A stretch of 64,000 bases of DNA from Norana najaformis (Eukaryota; Annelida; Clitellata; Crassiclitellata; Hormogastridae): positions 41,569,896 through 41,633,895 of the forward strand of contig OZ029916.1 of NCBI GenBank assembly GCA_964023275.1. Direction: 5' to 3'. The position numbers and the translations under genes are program-made. The notes under the pieces are model-generated. The model was not told the DNA's origin. It ran no database searches and saw only the letters and a list, made by a program, of their open reading frames with translations. The number at the start of each line of letters is the position of its first letter. Position 1 is the first letter of the stretch. This document shows, piece after piece, positions 1,362-41,540 of the stretch.

Positions 1362-1466
1362 TTACCAATCGGATTTGCCACGGATTACGATTTCTGACAA
1401 CAGTTTCACATGAAGAAAACCATCTATTGATGTCTTACGATTTGTGCTAATGGCGCTATAGAAGTT
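1362..1466 (+). repeat. Family A tail repeat, right arm of an inverted pair
   Basis: Reverse complement of 950-1050 with few mismatches. Its GCGCTATAGAAGTTAT end abuts the first codon of the LINE fragment that follows, so one element inserted into, or recombined with, the other. Confidence 0.75.
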
Positions 1467-1927
1467 ATGCAGAAGCACGGACACTGACAAAAGAGGAGGA
1501 GAAGCTGCTGGAAAAAACAGAAATGAGAATGCTGCGATGGATACTTGGAATCTCACTGAAAGACAGGAAAAGAAATGAGTATATCAGACAGAAATTGGGA
1601 GTGGCATGTATATCTGATAAGGTACGAGAAGCCAGGTTGAGATGGTACGGTCCTGTGATGAGGAGAGAAGAGGAAAACCGCATTAAAAGAATTTTGGCAG
1701 CAGAGGTTTACGGACGCCCCAGTCGTGGACGACAAAAGAAGAGATGGGGAGACATGATTCAGCAAGACCTAAAGCTCCTCAGATTGAAGAAAGAAGATAC
1801 CGAAGAAAGAAACAAATGGAAAAGAAAGATTCGTGTGGCTGACCCCTCTCCTGGAGGGATTAATTACGACAAGAAGGAAGAAGAAGAAGAACGCTTAGAA
1901 CACATCAAAAGCTTCGTCTCGAAGTAG
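1466..1927 (+). pseudogene. Non-LTR retrotransposon C-terminal fragment
   Basis: Open frame of 153 codons, extended upstream of the first ATG (1523) because the family reads through: YAEARTLTKEEEKLLEKTE, then MRMLRWILGISLKDRKRNEY, then KVREARLRWYGPVMRRE and GRPSRGRQKKRWGDMIQ. This is the conserved tail that follows the RT domain in many animal LINEs (consensus R-M-L-R-W-x-x-G, R-L-R-W-x-G-H-V-x-R, R-G-R-x-x-x-x-W-x-D). The expected W of the E-A-W motif is R, and H of G-H-V is P. The RT core is absent, so this is a 5'-truncated copy, not a host gene. Confidence 0.85.
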
Positions 1928-2795: not shown

Positions 2796-3265
2796 AACTT
2801 CCACATCAACTTCCATATCAACTTCCATATCAACTTTCATATCAACTTCCATATCAACTTTCATATCAACTTCCATATCAACTTTCATATCAACTTCCAT
2901 ATCAACTTTCATATCAACTTTCATATCAACTTCCATATCAACTTCCATATCAACTTTCATATCAACTTCCACATCAACTTCCATATCAACTTCCATATCG
3001 ACTTTCATATCAACTTCCATATCAACTTTCATATCAACTTCCATATCAACTTTCATATCAACTTCCATATCAACTTTCATATCAACTTCCATATCAACTT
3101 TCATATCAACTTCCATATCAACTTCCATATCAACTTTCATATCAACTTCCACATCAACTTCCATATCAACTTCCATATCGACTTTCATATCAACTTCCAT
3201 ATCAACTTCCATATCGACTTCCATATCAACTTTCATATCAACTTCCACATCAACTTCCATATCAA
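2796..3265. repeat. 12-bp minisatellite with higher-order structure
   Basis: About 39 tandem copies of AACTTCCATATC and variants (TTTCATATC, TTCCACATC, and CGAC for CAAC). The unit is a multiple of three and stop-free on both strands, so it gives a (N-F-H-I)n frame on plus and a (V-D-M-E/K)n frame on minus. Neither is evidence of a protein. The variant order repeats: a CCATATCGACTTTC variant at about 2995-3008 recurs at 3175-3188, indicating a higher-order unit of 180 bp (15 x 12). Confidence 0.95.
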
Positions 3266-11484: not shown

Positions 11485-11975
11485 TTAAATATAACTACAG
11501 ATACATCGATTCACAAAGCACTTTTTACAGTTTAGATTTGAGAATAGGTAACATGAAAGGGTGTCCTGTCTTGCGAAGCGAGGACTTGTCCTCATGTAGA
11601 GGTGGCAAGCCCCGATGAAGGCAGTGCCGGGAATCTGCGATTTCTGGAAGTGCTTCCAGTCTGCTCTAGCGATCAGCTAGCTATTCGGCAGATAATTCTT
11701 CCCACATATTTCCCATCTGCGAGCCTTTTTAAGAGCTGCATTAATGCGCGCAGCATCATGAGATGCAAGAAATCCAGCATAAGCCAAAAGTGCATAATTG
11801 ATACCTGAAATAATGATCGCTTGAAAATGACGTCCACTCTCGAGATACAGAGACCCTGTTTTCTTAACTGGCTGAGAACGATGTACCGCTGGTTAATGAG
11901 ACTAAGAATATAACTAACATCGTTCGAGAAAGAAAGGTTACTCTGTATAGGGATTCCAAACAGCCTGACACTTTC
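11485..11975 (-). pseudogene. Jockey/CR1-like LINE reverse transcriptase C-terminal fragment
   Basis: Minus strand translation gives RLFGIPIQSNLSFSNDVS, then VLSQLRKQGL, a frameshift, AIIISGINYALLAYAGFL, NAALKKARRW and, after one TAG, a tail ending FVNRC. The L-G-I-x-I/N-L-S-W, L-R-Q-L and Y-A-L-P-A-Y-A-G-F-L landmarks are those of the thumb region that follows the catalytic domain in animal LINEs. The frameshift near the AII block and the internal stop make it a pseudogene. The frame ends at a TAA at 11485-11487. Confidence 0.85.
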
Positions 11976-12419
11976 CAGCTGCTTTTTCTAGCAGGAAGGA
12001 ATTCAAGCCCCTTTGCTGGATGCAGCAATTTCAAAATATCCTACCCAGTAGCACACTTAGGGAAGCAAGATCAGCAGGATGTGGGTCGTAGTACTCAGTT
12101 GGAGTGCGAATGTCCGCAAAGGGGGTCGGGTGGAAAAATGCGGACAAGGGAAGGGAAGGGTCCTATATAATTCATTTCTTGCGGACGTCTTTTATGTACC
12201 GCCCTTGCTTCTTTTATTCTCTGGCTTCACGGTGCGCAGGGGCACCCCACTGCTTGTGGCCCACCCTCTGTCCATTTACGTGTAGACTCTTTTCCCAATC
12301 TCGTTCCTTCTCCACACTCCATCGGAATAAGGGGTATTGACTCAAACATAGGGTATACTTTTTCCATTACTCCCTCTGCTCGCCCATTCCACTGGCTCCA
12401 TCAGTTCCATCTACCGCTT

Positions 12420-25749: not shown

Positions 25750-26210
25750 TCAATCATTTGCAGGACTATATAGGCCAGTCTAACACTTGTAGGTCTATAT
25801 AGTAATGCCGATATTGTCCACCATCTGTAGGCCTGTATGGTCTATCATCTGTAGGCCTGTTGTCTATAATATGTAGGCTTATCATCTGTAGACCTATATA
25901 GTCATGGTCTATATAGTCTATCATCTGTAAGCCTACATAGTCTATCATCTGTAGGCCTATACAGTCTATCGTCTGTAGGCCTGTGTAGTCTATCATCTGT
26001 AGGCCTATACAGTCTAGCATCTGTAGGCCTATACAGTCTATCGTCTGTAGGCCTACATAGTCTATCATCTGTAGGCCTATGCAGTCTATCGTCTGTAGGC
26101 CTATACAGTCTATCATCTGTAGGCCTACATAGTTTATCGTCTGTAGGCTTATATAGTCTATCATCTGTGGCCTATAGAGTCTATCATCTGCAGGTGTGTA
26201 TTATAGTCTA
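25750..26210. repeat. 24-bp CTGTAGGCCTATACAGTCTA minisatellite
   Basis: About 18 units of roughly 24 bp with core ATCTGTAGGCCTATACAGTC. The minus strand is open for 132 codons and reads an 8-residue repeat (I-D-Y-I/V-G-L-Q-x), a consequence of the 24-bp period. AGGCCT inside the unit is palindromic. Spacing has no alternating repeat/spacer pattern, so it is not CRISPR-like. Confidence 0.9.
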
Positions 26211-26797: not shown

Positions 26798-27208
26798 GAG
26801 CAGACGACACTTTCAAATAAGTCACGTGACGCAGATGGCGGCCAATAGGGGAAATCCCCTGCTCGACGATGACCTAATCACGAACGTCATCAGCATGAAC
26901 TTCAGCGGACGGTTCAAAGGTCACGAGGTAAAGGACCTTGGGGGCGCCGTCATGCGTCACATGGTGGCCGCCAAGAGCGTCGACCTATTTTTCGGACAGC
27001 AGGCCAATTTTCGGCTTTCGTCACTTCCGGACAACTATGACGTCATCGGCAGCCAGAGGGCTTTCCTGATGTACAACCGGAAGCGGTTCCAGGCCAACGA
27101 CGAGCTGCAGTACCGTCACTTCCTGCGAGACCTTGAACTCAAAGGTCGACTGCAGAAGTATTACCTACCGGAGGCGAACTACACGCTCTGCAAAATGAAA
27201 TCCAAGGT
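26798..27208 (+). other. EEP-like gene, exon with start codon
   Basis: The acceptor at 26797 is preceded by a pyrimidine tract. The exon holds 37 nt of 5' UTR with an E-box-like CACGTG (26823-26828), then the first 374 coding bases. Its frame also stays open back to the acceptor, so an upstream coding exon cannot be excluded. Reading on past the donor meets TAA after two bases, which is why the unspliced frame stops at 27212. Confidence 0.7.
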
Positions 27209-30200
27209 GTAAGCAGATCCAGTGCTTTTTTCTGGAAAAAAGGTTCCGGAACTGAACAATTATGGAATTTTGTGCTAAAATGTCATTATTTTTATCAATC
27301 ACTAAAGACGGAAAACAATGTAAAGTTGTAAACACTGAAATTGAATTGAAATAAGTTACATTATATTACATAATTAAAATAACTTAGTAACATAATTCTT
27401 TTATTAAAAACTAAACTATAATTTTTATTAGCCGAAAAAAGGTGCCGGAACGCCTTTCCGGGATCAATTCGTAATCATAATCCCGAGATTTCTAAAGCCC
27501 CCAAAGCAAGCCACGTCACGAGGACCAGCTTATTCACAGGCGTTCAGTCAGAACAAAATCGATAGGCAAAAGTGTTCGGTTCCAGGTCAAGATCCAAGAG
27601 TCAGGCAGAGACGCGTGATAGCTACGGTGGGTGGTGTTTGGGATTGGAGCGGAAAGAAAGATAGGAGGAAGAAGGGGAGTCAGAATATGATCTTTGAAAG
27701 AAGAATGGCTCAGACTTTGTCACATTGAAGATACAATCACCCACGCATTTCGCTTCTTTTCTTAGATCTTTCCCAATTGGTTCAGACGGTGTCTTATTAA
27801 GGATAGATTTCATGTACCCACACGTCTTTCCCTCAAAACTGAAAACAGCTCTTCTACAAATCCTATCCTGATTCCTCCTCTTCCCCTTATCTCTCTTTCC
27901 GCTCCAATTCCCAACACCATACACCGTATCCGTTTGACTGTCTGTCTGCTTGCCTCTTCAATCTTGACCTGGAACCGAACCTTTCCTGCCTATCGATTTC
28001 GTTTGACTGAGCGCCTATGAATAAGCTTTTCCCCGTGACTTAACTTTCGTTGGGAGCTGTAGAAATCTCAAGTTTACGATTACGATCACATACGTTTCAC
28101 TTCTGGTCTTTCCCCCAGTGCCAACCAAATCCAGGATGCCTAACAGAAGCTGCTAGGATATCCATCCCTGCGACTGACAAGAATGCCATTGTCGTTTTTG
28201 TAGAATGGACGATACGAGCTTCATCGCCATGTCCTGGTTTACAGACGAAGGCAAGGACCAACTGCGCAGCCTCAACCTCCTTCGTAAGCTGCTCAGCTTC
28301 ACCGCCAACCTGTGTGCTATTGAAGAGATGCCCGTCGTCATCGCTGGATCTTTTCGACTGTCGCTCGAAGACGTCAAACAGGTCGACAATCGCAGTAATT
28401 CATATTCGTTCGTACATTGGATCACTCATTCATTCATTCATTCATCCATTCACCCATCCATTCACCCACCCATCTGTCGATCCTGCGTTCCTTCTATCCA
28501 TCTATCCCTCCCTCTATCCCTTCCATCCTTCCATCCACCTATTCATCGTTCGTTCCTTCGTTCCTTTCTTCCATCCATCCATCCATCCATCCATCCGTCC
28601 GTCCGTCCGTCCGTCCGTCCGTCCGTCCGTCCGTCCGTCCGTCCGTCCGTCCTTCCTTCCTTCCTTCCTTCCATCCATCCATTTATCCATCTATCCATCC
28701 TTCTCTCGTTCCTTCCTTCGTTCGTCGTTCCTTTCATCCATCTATCCATCCCTCCATCCCTTCATCCCTCCATCCACCCACTAACCCATCCACCCAAACC
28801 CACCCACCCACTCACCCACCCACCCACCCGTCCGTCCGTCCGTCCGTCCATCCACCCACCTATGGCCCTCGAAACTCTACGACTAGGTCTGATTTCAGAG
28901 CGAACAGCTTTCTGCTTACCCCAGACTAAATGCTTCATTTCTGGGGGAACCACATAGAGACCATGAAAGACAAGAGAAGAGGAGGGATATAGTTTAAATG
29001 AGATAATGTAGGAGTGAGAAGTGCAATCCCGAAGATAAGTTTCCAAGAAAGACGGAACCAGGAGTAATATCACTGTGCATTTTCACTGTGGTCTGTGAGC
29101 AATGGCCTAGGGGTTAAAGTGCAGGAATGTCAGCCCAGAGGTTGACGGTTCACATCCGCGCCAAGACAGACAGTCTTAGATTCGTAATCGTAATCGAAAT
29201 TCCGAGATTTCTACAGCGCCCAACTAAAGCCGCGCAGCGGGGACCAGCTTATTCACAAGCGCCCAGTCAAAACAAAATTGACAGGTAAAAAGGGTTCGAT
29301 TCCAGGTCAAGATCCAAAAGTCAGGCAGAGAGACAGCGTGACATCTACGGTGGGTGGTGTTTGGGATTGGAGGGGAAAGAGGGATAAGAGGGAAAAGGGA
29401 AGTCAGGATAGGATCTGTGAAAGAGGAATGTTTTAGAAGATTAGTACATCATAGCGAACTTAGTCATAAATGAGACCTACACTGTCGGTGGGAGGATCTG
29501 GTGTCTAAGAAGAGGACTAGACATGTGAGTAGTAAGATAAGGCCCCATACCTCACTATTCATATGGCCTAAGATGTAATTTAACTTCTGTAGGTAGTGGC
29601 CGGTTCTACGGCCTAAGCCGAGTCATTAACATCTGTCAAATAAATAACTGATAGACGGCGAGTGACCATAAAGTCCAACAATTTGCAGCTTTCTTCATGC
29701 TTGGTGCTTCGAATCGTCTGTATGGACTTTTATGTAGCCCCTTTGAAAACCCTCTCGAGGTAGTTATCCTAATTCCAGATACTCTCGGAGCTAAATAAGA
29801 CGGAGTATCTCTAAAACGATTTCTACGTTTGCCAATACTTAGCAGTTATGTCTGCTAAGAATAAACACTATAGTGTGGCTGGAACGATTGCAGATATCAA
29901 CTACTTGGAGTCAAGGCACATTCATTGTCGCCTGCTTCAGCTAGTTTTGTCTAGTTACTTCAAAAAGGCCAAAATTTTGTCTGGATATCGGCTACAGTGA
30001 CTGAACATTTGTTGGCGTTTGCCATTAGACATTTCTGTCTAATTACTTCAACAGTTAACAATTATGCACGGCTGTAGGCCACAGTGAGTGTGCTATTTAT
30101 TGAAAGACAGCTGATATCAATAAGAGCTTTCTGGCTATTATTGTTTTTCTTGTTTTTATGAAGCGCCAATAGATAATGACAAAGCATCATTCGATGGCGC

Positions 30201-32922
30201 TAACAGTTGTGCGTGAAGGCTTTGATGGAGATTCCTACTTAACCTTTTCGGGAGGGGGGAGGAGTTCGAACTCACACATTCCAACTCACAAGGAGCGCTC
30301 AACCAATCGACTGCTACAATGTCACTACGTAAGTGTCTGCCCTTAGCAGACATTGCTTTGGAGAGCGTAAGCTGTTGGCGTCAAAACGATGTCTGAATAA
30401 AATCCCAAACTGCGACGCTTAATCTTCTTGCTTTTCTGCGGCGTCTCGAAAGAAATTGGCTTACAATCGAATCTATGCAAAGCCTTTTGACGCTCATTAG
30501 CTCACACAAAGAGAATGTTTCCCTTGGCGAGTCTACAGCAACAATGAGGAATTTTTTCACGCACGCTGAATGAGAAGAAGGGTGTAAAATGTTGGTGTAA
30601 AATAGTGTTATGTCGTTAGGTTGCTGTAGTCGTGTTTGCGCCTCAGCTGAATAATCCATCGACCTCAGAACTACTCTTCTGAGGAGCTCCGACAGAGGCG
30701 TGTAAATAAATGTCTTCCATTGACCTTCAAGTTTTTGAGGAGTTTTAACCAATGATATATACTATGTAAGTAGTATAACCTCTTTGGAATTAACAGAGGC
30801 GTGTAAAGAAGGGTGTCGCATTTACCGTATGATTCCGAAGAGTCGCTGCTGAAACGTCTAAACAATACATTTGTAAGTAAGTAAGTAATACATTAATTTT
30901 GTTAACACGCCATATGTTCATCGACTGAGTGAGGAATCGTAGGCAAGTATCACTGCTTCCTTCAATTAATTCAAATTTCAGAATTCAACATGCGAGATTA
31001 TAAAACTCATCAAAGATAAGATATTCTGATACCTCAAAATTCAAAATGAGTGACTCTAAATACTCAGAAATCAAAATGAGGGATCTGAAGACTCAAAATT
31101 GAAAACAAAATGCTGTAAAATCTCAACAATCTAAATGCAATATTCTGCTAACTCATAATTCAAACTTAGTTATTCTTACACCACATTTACACCACTGAAA
31201 TTCCGTGTATGTAGGGGTAGCTGGTTATTTATGTAGCGCCTTTTAAGGAATCTCATGTTTGCTGCGATTCTGTCATCATTCGATGACGTGTATACATCGA
31301 AGTAAGTAAGCAAGTAATCAATGATTTTGTTATCACTCCATCATATCAGTCGGCTGAACGAAGAAGAATCCTGGGTGTGCTATGGGTGGATCTCTAGACC
31401 AGTCAACAAATGCAAGTCGGCACAAGTAATCGTAGTCGTAATCCCGAGATTTATACAGCGCCCAAAGAAAGTCACGTTAGGCAAGTAGGTTTTCAGCCGC
31501 TTAATGAAATGTCACGCGAGATATCACCTCTAGTTGTACCTAAATGCAGGAATCTGAATATTTGTATGGCGCCTTTAAATTACCCCTCAACTAATTAATA
31601 TAAAGCCTTTTTGCCTAGTTAGCTACATCGATAAGTGCGTACGACAAGGAGCCTCTGTGCGTGAGGATCCCAGGTTCGCCTCCCGGTTGTAGCCTATTTC
31701 AGAGATTTAAATCTCGGGCTAGTACGGTCCGTGGACGGGGACCTTAAGTGGTGTGGCGCCCATTCAAACGGACAGCGGTGGTGAAGGATCTCACCCGATA
31801 AATTCATTACAAAATGAGCAGGGTCGAGGCCATACGGTCGCTATATACAAAACCTATAAATTTTTGGAGTCTGGCGGAAACGCCGAGCCTGTCAACGTGC
31901 ATTCTGATTACTTATATAGCGCCTTTTGGAAGCCTCATAAAAGCGCTGAATCGGTATATGTCTTTTTCCGATGGCGTATCCAGGTCGTCTACAACGAATT
32001 CGAGGGTTTCCGTTGCTATGGATATCGAACGGACAAGAATCGGCGCGCAGCGCGCATGTGCAACATCTACGTCAGCTGCCCTCCGCTGAAGCTCGAAGAG
32101 GTGAAGCCGGTAGTCAGCGGAAAGCTCGAAATCTACGGGAACAAGATCGCCGACCGGTGGCGACATCTCGAGGACGCCTTCTACTGGGATCCGGTCTACG
32201 GGCGGATGTTACGTCGCAGCGGAACCTCTTCGGTCGCATCACCCGAGTCACCGAGGGCCATCTCGCCTCACTCCTTCGACAACTTTGGCGCCGAGGACGA
32301 GTCCGGAAGTACGCTGCAGTTGGGCGAATGTCCCTACGTTGACCCACAACATCCGAGACCTACTTTCCCTTCGGCCGAGGATACGCTCAAGGTACTTCTG
32401 GCGGAGAGCGAACGCATCAAGGAGCTGGTCAGCGAAGCGGAGACGAAGGCGCGGATGAGACTGGAAGCCCGAACTAAGCCTGGAAGACAGGGGGAACAAG
32501 ATGCGTCCGCTAGAGCACCTGCCTCATCAGCCGCCGTGCAGTTACAGGTAACGGAAGCTGGGCATGATGTTGGCTTCCCAATGAACTTCGACCTTGAGGC
32601 GGAAGCGAGGAAAGTGTCGGAGTCTCTTAGGAGTGGCGCTCGATCCTCGATCGACGAGGACGAGGAATTCCAGATGCTCGAAAAGGCGTTCAGTGCGCAG
32701 GGGCTCGAATCCAAGCACAAAGCGGGCGACGTATCAGACGGAACCGCAGCAGACAAACAAGACCAGTCAAGCGTGTCGAACGTACTTGAAACCAGTCATC
32801 CAAGCAAACCGCAAGCAACGACACTTGAGGTACCTTCGAGTCCACTGCGCAAGATGCCAAGTTACATCGACCTTTACGACGAGGAGCTCATCGACAGTAA
32901 CAAAGTCTGCTACATGCAATAG
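26835..32922 (+). CDS. EEP-fold (endonuclease/exonuclease/phosphatase) protein, probably catalytically inactive
   Basis: Three-exon model: 26835-27208, 28204-28381, 31984-32922 (374+178+939 nt, 496 aa plus stop). The exon 1 donor CCAAGGT/GTAAGC and exon 2 acceptor TTTTTGTAG split one Val codon in phase, giving KSKV then MDDTSFIAMSW. Residues 14-260 follow an EEP domain in order: SMNFSG (19-25, the usual SWN motif), LFFGQQ (51-56, usual QE), GSQRAFLMYN, FIAMSWF (131-137, related proteins have SWHG), PVVIAGSFR (168-176, usual GDFN), RMCNIYVS (usual R-x-I-D-Y-F) and FYWDPV (250-255, usual D-H-D-P-V). The catalytic Glu, Asp-Asn and Asp-His pairs are therefore replaced; only Asn22 remains. Residues 264-496 form a Ser/Pro-rich tail with a charged helix near 310-350. 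Start: ATG GCG GCC, just after the acceptor at 26797. The exon 2 donor (CAG/GTCGAC) is poor, so that junction is the weakest part. Family assignment rests on recalled motif order, not on a search. Confidence 0.7.
27220..27465 (+). mobile_element. hAT-type MITE, right end truncated
   Basis: Begins CAGTGCTTTTTTCTGG 11 bp after the exon 1 donor site and matches 34446-34680 nearly base for base (GTTCCGGAACTGA, ACATAATTAAAATAACTTAG, CGAAAAAAGGTGC). The right terminal repeat is missing; a minus-strand LINE tail begins at 27464, so later insertion or deletion removed it. Confidence 0.85.
27464..27720 (-). mobile_element. LINE family L 3' end (minus copy)
   Basis: CGTAATCATAATCCCGAGAT, CAGCTTATTCACAGGCGTTC, GATCCAAGAGTCAGGC and GGTGGTGTTTGGGATTGGAG: the reverse complement of the 3' end of the LINE at 40497-41540. 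It forms an inverted pair with the next entry inside intron 1. Confidence 0.85.
27790..28087 (+). mobile_element. LINE family L 3' end (plus copy)
   Basis: CCTCAAAACTGAAAACAGC, TCCTATCCTGATTCCTCC, CTTTCCGCTCCAATTCCCAA, GACTGAGCGCCTATGAATAA and GTAGAAATCTCAAGTTTACGATTACGA. Same order as 41275-41530. Inverted relative to 27464-27720. Confidence 0.85.
28204..28381 (+). other. EEP-like gene, exon 2
   Basis: Acceptor GTCGTTTTTGTAG. Codes residues 125-184: FIAMSWF strand, an amphipathic helix LNLLRKLLSFTANL, then PVVIAGSFRLSLEDVKQ. The frame runs on into the ATCC microsatellite, which is intron, so the exon must end before it. The phase-correct donor is CAG/GTCGAC at 28382. Confidence 0.6.
28420..28860. 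repeat. ATCC/GTCC/ATTC tetranucleotide tract in intron 2
   Basis: CATTCATTC at left, a pure (GTCC)n of about 14 units (28597-28651), TTCC and ATCC runs, and a second GTCC run at 28828-28849. The three long overlapping frames across it are artefacts. Confidence 0.95.
29096..29170 (+). mobile_element. tRNA-like SINE head
   Basis: AGCAATGGCCTAGGGGTTAA resembles an A box; GTTGACGGTTCACATCCGC carries a B box. It is followed at once by a minus-strand LINE L tail. Confidence 0.5.
29176..29435 (-). mobile_element. LINE family L 3' end
   Basis: CGTAATCGTAATCG, AGATTTCTACAGCGCCCAAC, CAGCTTATTCACAAGCGCCC and GGTGGTGTTTGGGATTGGAG, as in the other minus copies (13156, 27464, 37690). Confidence 0.85.
29436..30134. 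other. No gene recognised (intron 2 of the EEP-like gene)
   Basis: Unclassified intronic sequence. Short degenerate blocks such as GTAGCCCCTTTGAAAACCCT (29734 on) are old retroelement tail boxes. Confidence 0.5.
30135..30335 (-). mobile_element. SINE family G
   Basis: Minus strand: tRNA-like head at right, GAATGTGTGAGTTCGAACTC as B box region, body with CGCCATCGAATGATGCTTTG and tail GGCGCTTCATAAAAAC. Block order as at 52270-52457. Confidence 0.6.
30870..30945 (-). mobile_element. SINE family D 3' fragment
   Basis: (GTAA)n then TTGTTAACACGCCATATGTT, CATCGACTGAGTGAGGAATC. Another fragment follows at 31298-31375. Confidence 0.65.
31424..31490 (-). mobile_element. Short LINE L tail fragment
   Basis: AATCGTAGTCGTAATCCCGA, TTTATACAGCGCCCAAAGAA, CACGTTAGGC. 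Confidence 0.6.
31611..31860 (+). mobile_element. SINE family K, copy 2
   Basis: GTGCGTGAGGATCCCAGG with TTCGCCTCCCGG, CAGAGATTTAAATCTCGGGC, CATTCAAACGGACAGCGG and CTCACCCGATAAATTCATTA, in the order seen at 590-840. It lies just upstream of coding exon 3, and the coding frame of that exon happens to stay open back through it to 31753. Confidence 0.75.
31984..32922 (+). other. EEP-like gene, last coding exon
   Basis: GC-rich exon of 313 codons including the TAG stop. Acceptor CGATGGCGTATCCAG (31969-31983); a second in-phase acceptor candidate, ATTCGAG, ends at 32004. Codes the end of the fold (GFRCYGYRTDKN, RMCNIYVSCPPLKLEEVK, FYWDPVYG) and then the tail: SSVASPESPRAISP, a helical SAEDTLKVLLAESERIKELV, and acidic/Ser-rich blocks to the C-terminus SNKVCYMQ. 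The unspliced frame begins 77 codons earlier inside a SINE; that part is not expected to be protein. Confidence 0.75.
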
Positions 32923-34445: not shown

Positions 34446-34703
34446 CAGTGCTTTTTTCTAGAAAAAAAGGTTCCGGAACTGAATTAGGGAATTTTGTTAT
34501 AAAATTTCATTATTGTTTTTAATCAATAAACACTGAAAACAGTGTAAAGTTGTAAACACTGAAACTGAATTAAAATAAGTTACATTATATCACATAATTA
34601 AAATAACTTAGTAACACAATTCTTTTATTAAAAACTAAACTATTTTTTATTGGCCGAAAAAAGGTGCTGGAACGTTTCGGAGCGTTCTTCTGAAAAAGTA
34701 CTG
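34446..34703 (+). mobile_element. hAT-superfamily MITE with intact target-site duplication
   Basis: 258-bp non-coding element flanked by a perfect 8-bp direct repeat ATTAGCAC (34438-34445 and 34704-34711). Ends CAGTGCTTTTTTC and GAAAAAGTACTG are inverted repeats with one mismatch and one length difference; CAGTG termini with 8-bp duplications are hAT hallmarks. Subterminal AAAAAAGGTTCCGGAAC and GAAAAAAGGTGCTGGAACG blocks face each other. It has no open frame, so it needs a transposase in trans. The second copy is at 27220-27465. Confidence 0.9.
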
Positions 34704-39690: not shown

Positions 39691-40496
39691 ATCAGGCGCA
39701 GTAAAGTTAAACAAATCGAGCAGAGTTATCAATACTGACCATCCCCGAAATACACCCCATCAGTCCCTCATCCTAAGTAGTTGTTCTTACTTCCGGTTTA
39801 GAAACCACTGCCCCATAAGTTATTCTAGGCATGAGACGCGTCAACTACATGTATGCTTTGAGTCTGTTGGGACATATTTTAAACATAAAGACATTAAGAC
39901 TAATTATTCCACTAAGCATAGCATTTAAGGTGTTTTTAACATAACCTAATCAGTTAGTAACCTTTTCTTCGTCGCTCACTGATCCACAAATGATTTCTAC
40001 AATTTCCATATGAAGAAACTCAAACACGTCATCCGCCATTTTAACTTTTATTTACATCTCGATTAACGTAGATAGCACAGGATTCTTGAACGCCACCAAG
40101 CGGTTGACTAAATGTTAATGTCATGCAATTTGAATCTTTGAAGTTTACCAGCGCCACACGAAAACTGCGTCACGAAGATCAGTTTATTCGCCGGCGGTTA
40201 ATCAGATTAAGTTCGCGAGAGCCATATCGATTGGTCAGTTTCGGTGCCAGGTTGAAATCCTCAGAGATCGAGCTGAGATCAAGTGATTACTACGATGCTT
40301 GCTGACTACTGGACAGCCACTCTCACTGGGCCCATAGATAACCACCGTGTTGTATTATTATTATTATCTGCCGTGGTGGGAATTCATGCCCACCCACCTC
40401 AGGTGGTACAACAGTTCAACGCACTAACCACTGGCCTATCGGACTAAATTCCATTGAAACCCAGCTTCCTAAAGTCAGCATCACCGTATAATTTGT

Positions 40497-41540
40497 GTGG
40501 TTAAACAAATCTCCTCTTGGATGACATCTAATCTCTTATGCCTGAACCCATCTAAAACTGAATTCATTCTTATAGGCCTACGTGACCAGCTCAAGAAAAT
40601 TCCTGACCCCTCTATCTCCCTCAGCCTGGACTCTGCCTCCACCCACACCTTTAATACTAACTCCTCTGTCCGTAATTTAGGTGTTATTTTCGACCAGAAC
40701 CTTACTTTTTCTGATCATATCACCCATCTTTCCCGCTCTTGCTTTATGCATATCCGCGATCTTCGCAGAATCCGTCCTATGCTTGACTTCAAAACCGCTT
40801 CTATCATTGCCACATCCATAGTTCATGCAAAACTTGACTACTGCAATTCACTTTTTCTCAATATTGACACAACCCAGATAAATCGCCTACAAGCTATCCA
40901 GAATGCTCTGGCACGTGCTGTCACCAAAACCCCCAAACACCATCACATCACCCCTGTTCTCAAATCACTGCACTGGCTTAAAATACCAGAACGAATAGAG
41001 TACAAAGTCTTATCCCTCACCTACAACACACTTCAATCCTCCCAACCCTCCTATCTTCGTCAATTATTTACTATCCAACCACTCCGTTCAACCCGCTCCT
41101 CATCTGTCCTAACACTTCTTCGCCCTCCCGTCACCTCATCCTTAAAATTTGGAAATCGCTCCATAGCCATAGCTGCCCCACCCCTTTGGAATAAACTCCC
41201 GCCAGAATTGCGACAGTTGTCTGGTCAATCACACGAACTCACCAACACTTCACCTCTTTCAGTTTCTGCGCAGGTCTTTCACTCAAGACTGAAAACACTT
41301 CTTTTCCAGAAATCTTATCCTGATTCTTCCTCTTCCCCTTATCTCTCTTCTCGCTTCAATTTCAAACAGCATCCACCGTAGCCGTCCGACTGTCTGAGTG
41401 CCTGACTCCTGGATCTTGACCCTTTGCCTATCGATTTTGTTTTGACTGAGCGCCTGTGAATAAGCTGGTTCCCGCGACTTAGCTTTCGTTGAGCGCTGTA
41501 GAAATCTCGAGATTACGATTACGATTACGATATAACACTA
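40497..41540 (+). pseudogene. LINE family L: RT C-terminal ORF and complete 3' UTR
   Basis: Longest transposon frame in the window (294 codons to 41381, intact) but 5'-truncated inside the reverse transcriptase. Order: SWMTSNLLCLNPSKTEFILI, SVRNLGVIFDQNLTFSDHI, RRIRPMLDFKTASII, HAKLDYCNSLF, RLQAIQNALARAVT, ITPVLKSLHWLKIPERIEYK, LWNKLPPELR and FHSRLKTLLFQ. This is the post-catalytic region of the L2/CR1 superfamily; the YADD box and the endonuclease are missing. The 3' UTR ends GCGCCTGTGAATAAGCTGG, GAGCGCTGTAGAAATCTCG and (ATTACG)n at 41512-41531. At least six other copies of this 3' end occur in the window, so this family was locally prolific. Confidence 0.9.

Follow-up and report, generated by a model that had tools for sequence, protein, structure and literature searches.

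What keeps a gene intact once the enzyme that it seems to encode has lost its chemistry? This question is raised by a three-exon gene in the genome of the annelid Norana najaformis, located in the 64,000-nt stretch of DNA that we analysed as a whole and call the window (C4:41569896-41633895). The encoded protein carries the motif sites of the endonuclease/exonuclease/phosphatase (EEP) fold in order, with the catalytic residues largely replaced. A preliminary description of the locus had favoured selection for a non-catalytic role over simple decay. The explanation that we prefer, and consider reasonably likely, is that the protein is an old, selected pseudo-EEP, that its catalytic residues were lost before a gene duplication, and that it is probably lipid-anchored and binds rather than cuts.

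Catalytic positions in the gene and its paralogue

The three exons splice in phase into a coding sequence (CDS) of 1491 nt, 496 codons and a stop, with GT/AG intron borders (exon 3 in full spans 31984-32922 on the forward strand). This is the arrangement that the preliminary description had read in the window, and its altered motifs (GQQ, SWFT, GSFR, RMCNIY and YWDPV) were all recovered at the residues where it had placed them (see Table 1). The search for related genes that it proposed turned up one, in the same genome only. In this genome (608,420,607 bases in 17 contigs) the first 262 residues matched at least four places, the three exons and one other locus (4 of the 4 first-look candidates were scored, and the counts are lower bounds). 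The other locus (C6:5680891-5681604, minus strand; E = 8.8e-36) has 37% identity to residues 15-258. It is part of a stop-free open frame of 642 codons, 618 of them counted from the Met of MAASVL (C6:5679751-5681607, equivalent to L057:1752-3608, minus strand). The domain of this paralogue has no intron, whereas the window gene has two, and the intronless copy may be an old retrocopy. Its single frame runs across both splice joins, which are therefore supported independently of transcripts. With exon 3 as the query, the same genome returned the gene itself, the paralogue (E = 1e-7) and a locus on contig C3 at E = 8.35, which was judged to be a chance match. A CTGT-type microsatellite lies directly upstream of the paralogue.

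EEP catalysis requires a Glu, the Asp and Asn of GDxN, a His and an Asp for handling metal and phosphate. This set is absent from the window protein, which has Q, F, S, R, N, Y and W at residues 56, 137, 174, 176, 211, 251 and 252, and the corresponding paralogue residues are Q, F, S, H, S, Y and W. The replacement is thus identical at 5 of the 7 positions, with 89/238 residues identical overall. Two residues, N22 (the Asn of motif I) and D253 (the second Asp of DHDP), are retained in both proteins. From its sequence, the window protein is predicted to be catalytically inactive. The simplest account of the shared replacements is a loss of catalysis ahead of the duplication, followed by retention of the altered site.

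The former motifs are also the best conserved part of the pair. In the pairwise alignment 33/48 residues are identical within five motif segments, placed around the motifs of the preliminary description with the alignment in view, compared with 56/190 elsewhere. None of the 237 rotations of the segment set reached 33 identities (the maximum was 31). The RxIDYF segment is the least conserved of the five, with 2/9 identical. This concentration, together with a stretch (FRCYGY) that is invariant in the pair, would also suit a still-active enzyme whose catalytic residues have migrated or differ, for example the invariant N22, D253, C195 or arginines. The seven replaced positions are, however, presumably needed by EEP chemistry, and we regard continued activity as quite unlikely.

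A decaying pseudogene is a further alternative. The catalytic residues are gone, and the donor of intron 2 (CAG/gtcgac) looks weak by eye. On the other hand, the frames of 496 and 618 codons are free of stops, third-position GC is raised (0.68 in the joined CDS, against intron GC of 0.41 and 0.44), and conservation is concentrated in the motif segments and at the C-terminus. The NG86 method gave non-synonymous (dN) and synonymous (dS) distances of 0.68 and 2.25 over 238 codons, a dN/dS of about 0.3 that is only indicative because dS is near saturation. These two sequences show intact frames and constraint on the predicted inactive form, and decay is rejected as very improbable.

The proposed link to the EEP fold

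Pfam and HMMER both miss the link to the EEP fold. Its support is the order of the motifs, a local alignment by hhalign and a structure model whose TM-scores are low. The model is that of the paralogue, which is of low confidence (pLDDT 46, pTM 0.48) and has a predicted core of E107-114, H123-144 and E148-155. EEP proteins made up 49 of the 50 matches listed by Foldseek and all 50 listed by a VIA comparison. An AlphaFold model of exon 1 by itself gave no information. The weak paralogue model, combined with the 37% identity, suggests that the window protein may have the EEP fold.

For the profile comparisons 16 EEP sequences were used, 13 of them bacterial (L014, L028-L032 and L034-L040) and three from the own genome (L042, L043 and L049). 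Near copies of L043 (L044-L048) were omitted, and L033 and L041 stayed outside because no frame passed the filter. In local mode, hhalign aligned the pair to this profile with a score of 24.66 and a stated probability of 4.5%, placing D-L-F-F-G-Q-Q of the pair on the D-v-v-x-L-Q-E consensus of the EEPs. Of 500 column shuffles, one reached this score. Scores were 17.5 for the reversed pair, 21.3 for the window domain alone and 26.5 for the paralogue alone.

Could the protein be an unrelated alpha/beta protein, in which degraded motifs fall in order by chance? Several results weigh in that direction. The profile search proposed by the preliminary description came back negative, as no Pfam model, PF03372 (Exo_endo_phos) included, was matched by either of the two proteins up to E = 10. 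With HMMER and the 16-sequence profile, 59 of 500 shuffles scored at least as high as the real window domain and 5 of 500 as high as that of the paralogue (shuffles with a reported score numbered 296 and 234, the remainder being unscored). In global mode hhalign aligned 14 columns with a score of 1.16, and confidence in the model is low, with Foldseek TM-scores of 0.24-0.34 against EEP entries. The silence of Pfam, the low TM-scores and the seven replaced positions are also what separates the pair from members of the EEP superfamily (DNase I-like; TDP2, Nocturnin and DNase I), which it resembles in the predicted core of the paralogue, in the order of the motif sites and in the retained motif-I Asn. 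Against an unrelated protein stand the lists of structural matches, nearly all EEP, and the local alignment, which is rarely equalled by shuffles and lies at the expected motif. We therefore reject this alternative as unlikely. Taken together, the replacements shared with an old, intact paralogue and the matches at the level of the fold argue for a selected EEP-like pseudoenzyme and not a decaying gene, in support of the role proposed in the preliminary description.

Searches further afield added no relatives. A profile of the pair had no PDB match up to E = 10, and the spliced protein had no useful match in Pfam or NCBIfam. Three kinds of match to the spliced protein were judged to be due to chance, namely 22 residues in PHROGs (E = 0.2), two PDB sequences (E = 1.6-1.7) and five phage records by tblastn (E = 5). 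In viral contigs the spliced protein gave no pattern match, the pair gave 35 with 0 relatives, and three Escherichia coli EEPs gave 88 with 0 relatives.

An active parent gene was not found, with two of eight PF03372 loci of the own genome read and no one-by-one comparison with the family made. Both loci (L042 and L049) retain GDFN or GDLN, and SDH. In the same genome 150 of 1586 PF03372 candidates were scored, many in roughly 1000-codon frames resembling the open reading frames of long interspersed nuclear elements (LINEs). We also sought, by DNA pattern, a putative invertebrate EEP family with SWHG, GGDFN, IDYF and DHDPV, which the patterns did not confirm. A three-motif pattern had 0 matches in viral contigs and 0 in genome contigs. 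A two-motif pattern had 12 matches in viral contigs, none an in-frame EEP, and 15 in genome contigs. Both motifs are in frame in two of these 15, one of them (L014) reading as an EEP.

The C-terminal tail and the surroundings of the gene

Beyond the domain, the preliminary description had noted about 230 added residues, Ser/Pro-rich and helical. The tail is more than this: after a Ser/Glu/Ala-rich linker, the last 25 residues are conserved and have a CaaX-like end. For the linkers of the two proteins, the alignment score is equalled or exceeded by 371 of 500 shuffles; for the whole tails the figure is 14 of 500, and for the final 25 residues by themselves it is 0 of 2000. Both proteins have a Cys at exactly -4 from the stop (CYMQ and CRLM), followed by an aliphatic a2 (Met or Leu) and an accepted X (Gln or Met). 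In the CaaX rule, Gln or Met as X points to farnesyl, suggesting that the Cys box is a farnesylation site. The a1 residue, Tyr in the window protein and Arg in the paralogue, is aliphatic in neither, so the prenylation of the window protein stays a prediction.

The same tail might instead belong to a soluble pseudo-EEP adaptor, in which the Cys is unprenylated and the conserved end, with its acidic D-L-x-x-E stretch, is a protein-binding motif. Here the conservation over more than 10 residues before the Cys, beyond what a CaaX box needs, and the two non-aliphatic a1 residues find a ready explanation. The position of the Cys in both proteins, together with the a2 and X residues named above, fits farnesylation. 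X = Gln also has a precedent in INPP5A, which is farnesylated at CVVQ and loses its membrane location as a Cys mutant (PMC12450637). A soluble adaptor thus appears rather doubtful, and a lipid-anchored pseudo-EEP is preferred.

The features of the gene are collected in Table 1.

Table 1. Features of the EEP-like gene and its product, with positions in the window
Feature	Position	Strand	Description
Exon 1	26835..27208	+	Residues 1-124 plus two bases of codon 125; start of EEP-like domain; aligned to paralogue
Exon 2	28204..28381	+	Remainder of codon 125, then residues 126-184; core of strand, helix and strand
Exon 3, domain part	31984..32217	+	Residues 185-262; aligned to paralogue
G-Q-Q, residues 54-56	26994..27002	+	Site of Q-E, Glu>Gln; GQQ in paralogue too
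S-W-F-T, residues 135-138	28232..28243	+	Site of S-W-H-G, His>Phe; SWFT in paralogue too
G-S-F-R, residues 173-176	28346..28357	+	Site of G-D-F-N; Asp>Ser in the two proteins; Asn>Arg in window protein, Asn>His in paralogue
R-M-C-N-I-Y, residues 208-213	32053..32070	+	Site of R-x-I-D-Y-F; Asp>Asn in window protein, Asp>Ser in paralogue
Y-W-D-P-V, residues 251-255	32182..32196	+	Site of D-H-D-P-V; Asp>Tyr and His>Trp in both proteins
Linker, residues 263-471	32218..32844	+	Low conservation, Ser/Glu/Ala-rich
Last 25 residues	32845..32919	+	Conserved; D-L-x-x-E-x(4)-S-N-x-x-C common to both proteins
C-Y-M-Q, C-terminus	32908..32919	+	Candidate CaaX prenylation box; paralogue ends in C-R-L-M

A crude codon score, applied to frames of at least 45 codons after removal of low-complexity frames and partly circular because it was trained on the gene itself, ranked the frame of exon 3 first, that of exon 1 second and that of exon 2 fifth; two of the frames ahead of exon 2 overlap exon 3. 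A tblastn search of the window found no further copy of the gene (other matches had E of 2.2 and 7.7), and scans of the window for tRNAs and for Rfam families at the gathering score were empty.

Several repeats lie in and around the gene. Exon 2 is flanked by inverted repeats in introns 1 and 2 (27849-28089 and 29184-29425; lengths of 156 nt and 93 nt, with 76% complementarity in each), which could promote skipping or back-splicing of exon 2 if they pair in the pre-mRNA. A 167-nt direct repeat of 90% identity occurs in intron 1 (27258-27424) and downstream of the gene (34482-34648). Each copy is immediately preceded by AAAAAAGGTTCCGGAACTGAA, and the repeat is an interspersed element. Upstream, a 24-bp minisatellite of 16 copies (25807-26194) stops some 640 bases short of the start codon. 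Elsewhere in the window, a 12-bp tandem array with 39 copies of the consensus AACTTCCATATC (2796-3265) has open frames on both strands. The open frames at 40473-41381 and 1451-1927 (forward strand) and at 85-360 and 11673-11987 (reverse strand) look by eye like remnants of LINE reverse transcriptases, with no Pfam match up to E = 0.1.

Proposed role and related systems

The EEP-like domain would offer its former active-site cleft as a fixed surface, formed by FGQQA, SWFTD, GSFxLSxEDV and EDxFYWDP. Stripped of metal ligands and of the catalytic His and Asp, this cleft most likely has a binding role, holding a ligand or partner protein that it does not cut. The freely diverging linker and a farnesylated CaaX-like box would tether the domain to membranes. 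Judging by the neighbours of the fold, candidate ligands are phosphoinositides, nucleotides, nucleic acid or an active partner enzyme.

The inositol polyphosphate 5-phosphatases INPP5A and INPP5E, which have the EEP fold, offer a picture of such an architecture. INPP5E is farnesylated at its C-terminal CaaX (PMC5512577). Both enzymes carry a CaaX at the C-terminus behind their phosphatase domain, an arrangement resembling that proposed for the window protein. Unlike the pseudo-EEP proposed here, they are active enzymes. General Pfam scans of both of our proteins gave no match to this family, and no 5-phosphatase sequence was compared. We tentatively suggest a small family of lipid-anchored pseudo-EEPs, in which the cleft may serve as a fixed membrane sensor or adaptor (for example of phosphoinositides, nucleotides or a partner enzyme), much like a farnesylated 5-phosphatase without the chemistry.

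Pseudoenzymes are a known kind, and databases may well already contain relatives of the window protein, listed as uncharacterised. Fungal pseudonucleases of the Dis3/RNase II type have kept the nuclease fold, lost activity and taken on an RNA-binding role (PMC8097288). The retained fold and lost chemistry are as proposed here, but the nuclease family (RNase II) is a different one. These pseudonucleases are not known to carry a lipid anchor. A partial survey of the literature found no pseudo-EEP with a CaaX box or prenylation, which is no proof of novelty; a term search of PMC10211241 gave 0 occurrences of 'exonuclease', 'EEP' and 'DNase'.

EEP enzymes function in DNA repair, RNA decay and phosphoinositide signalling. 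If the explanation that we prefer is true, the annelid pair would offer a testable example of how an enzyme cleft becomes a binding site, in an old, duplicated and seemingly lipid-tethered branch, and would represent a family as yet unseen by Pfam.

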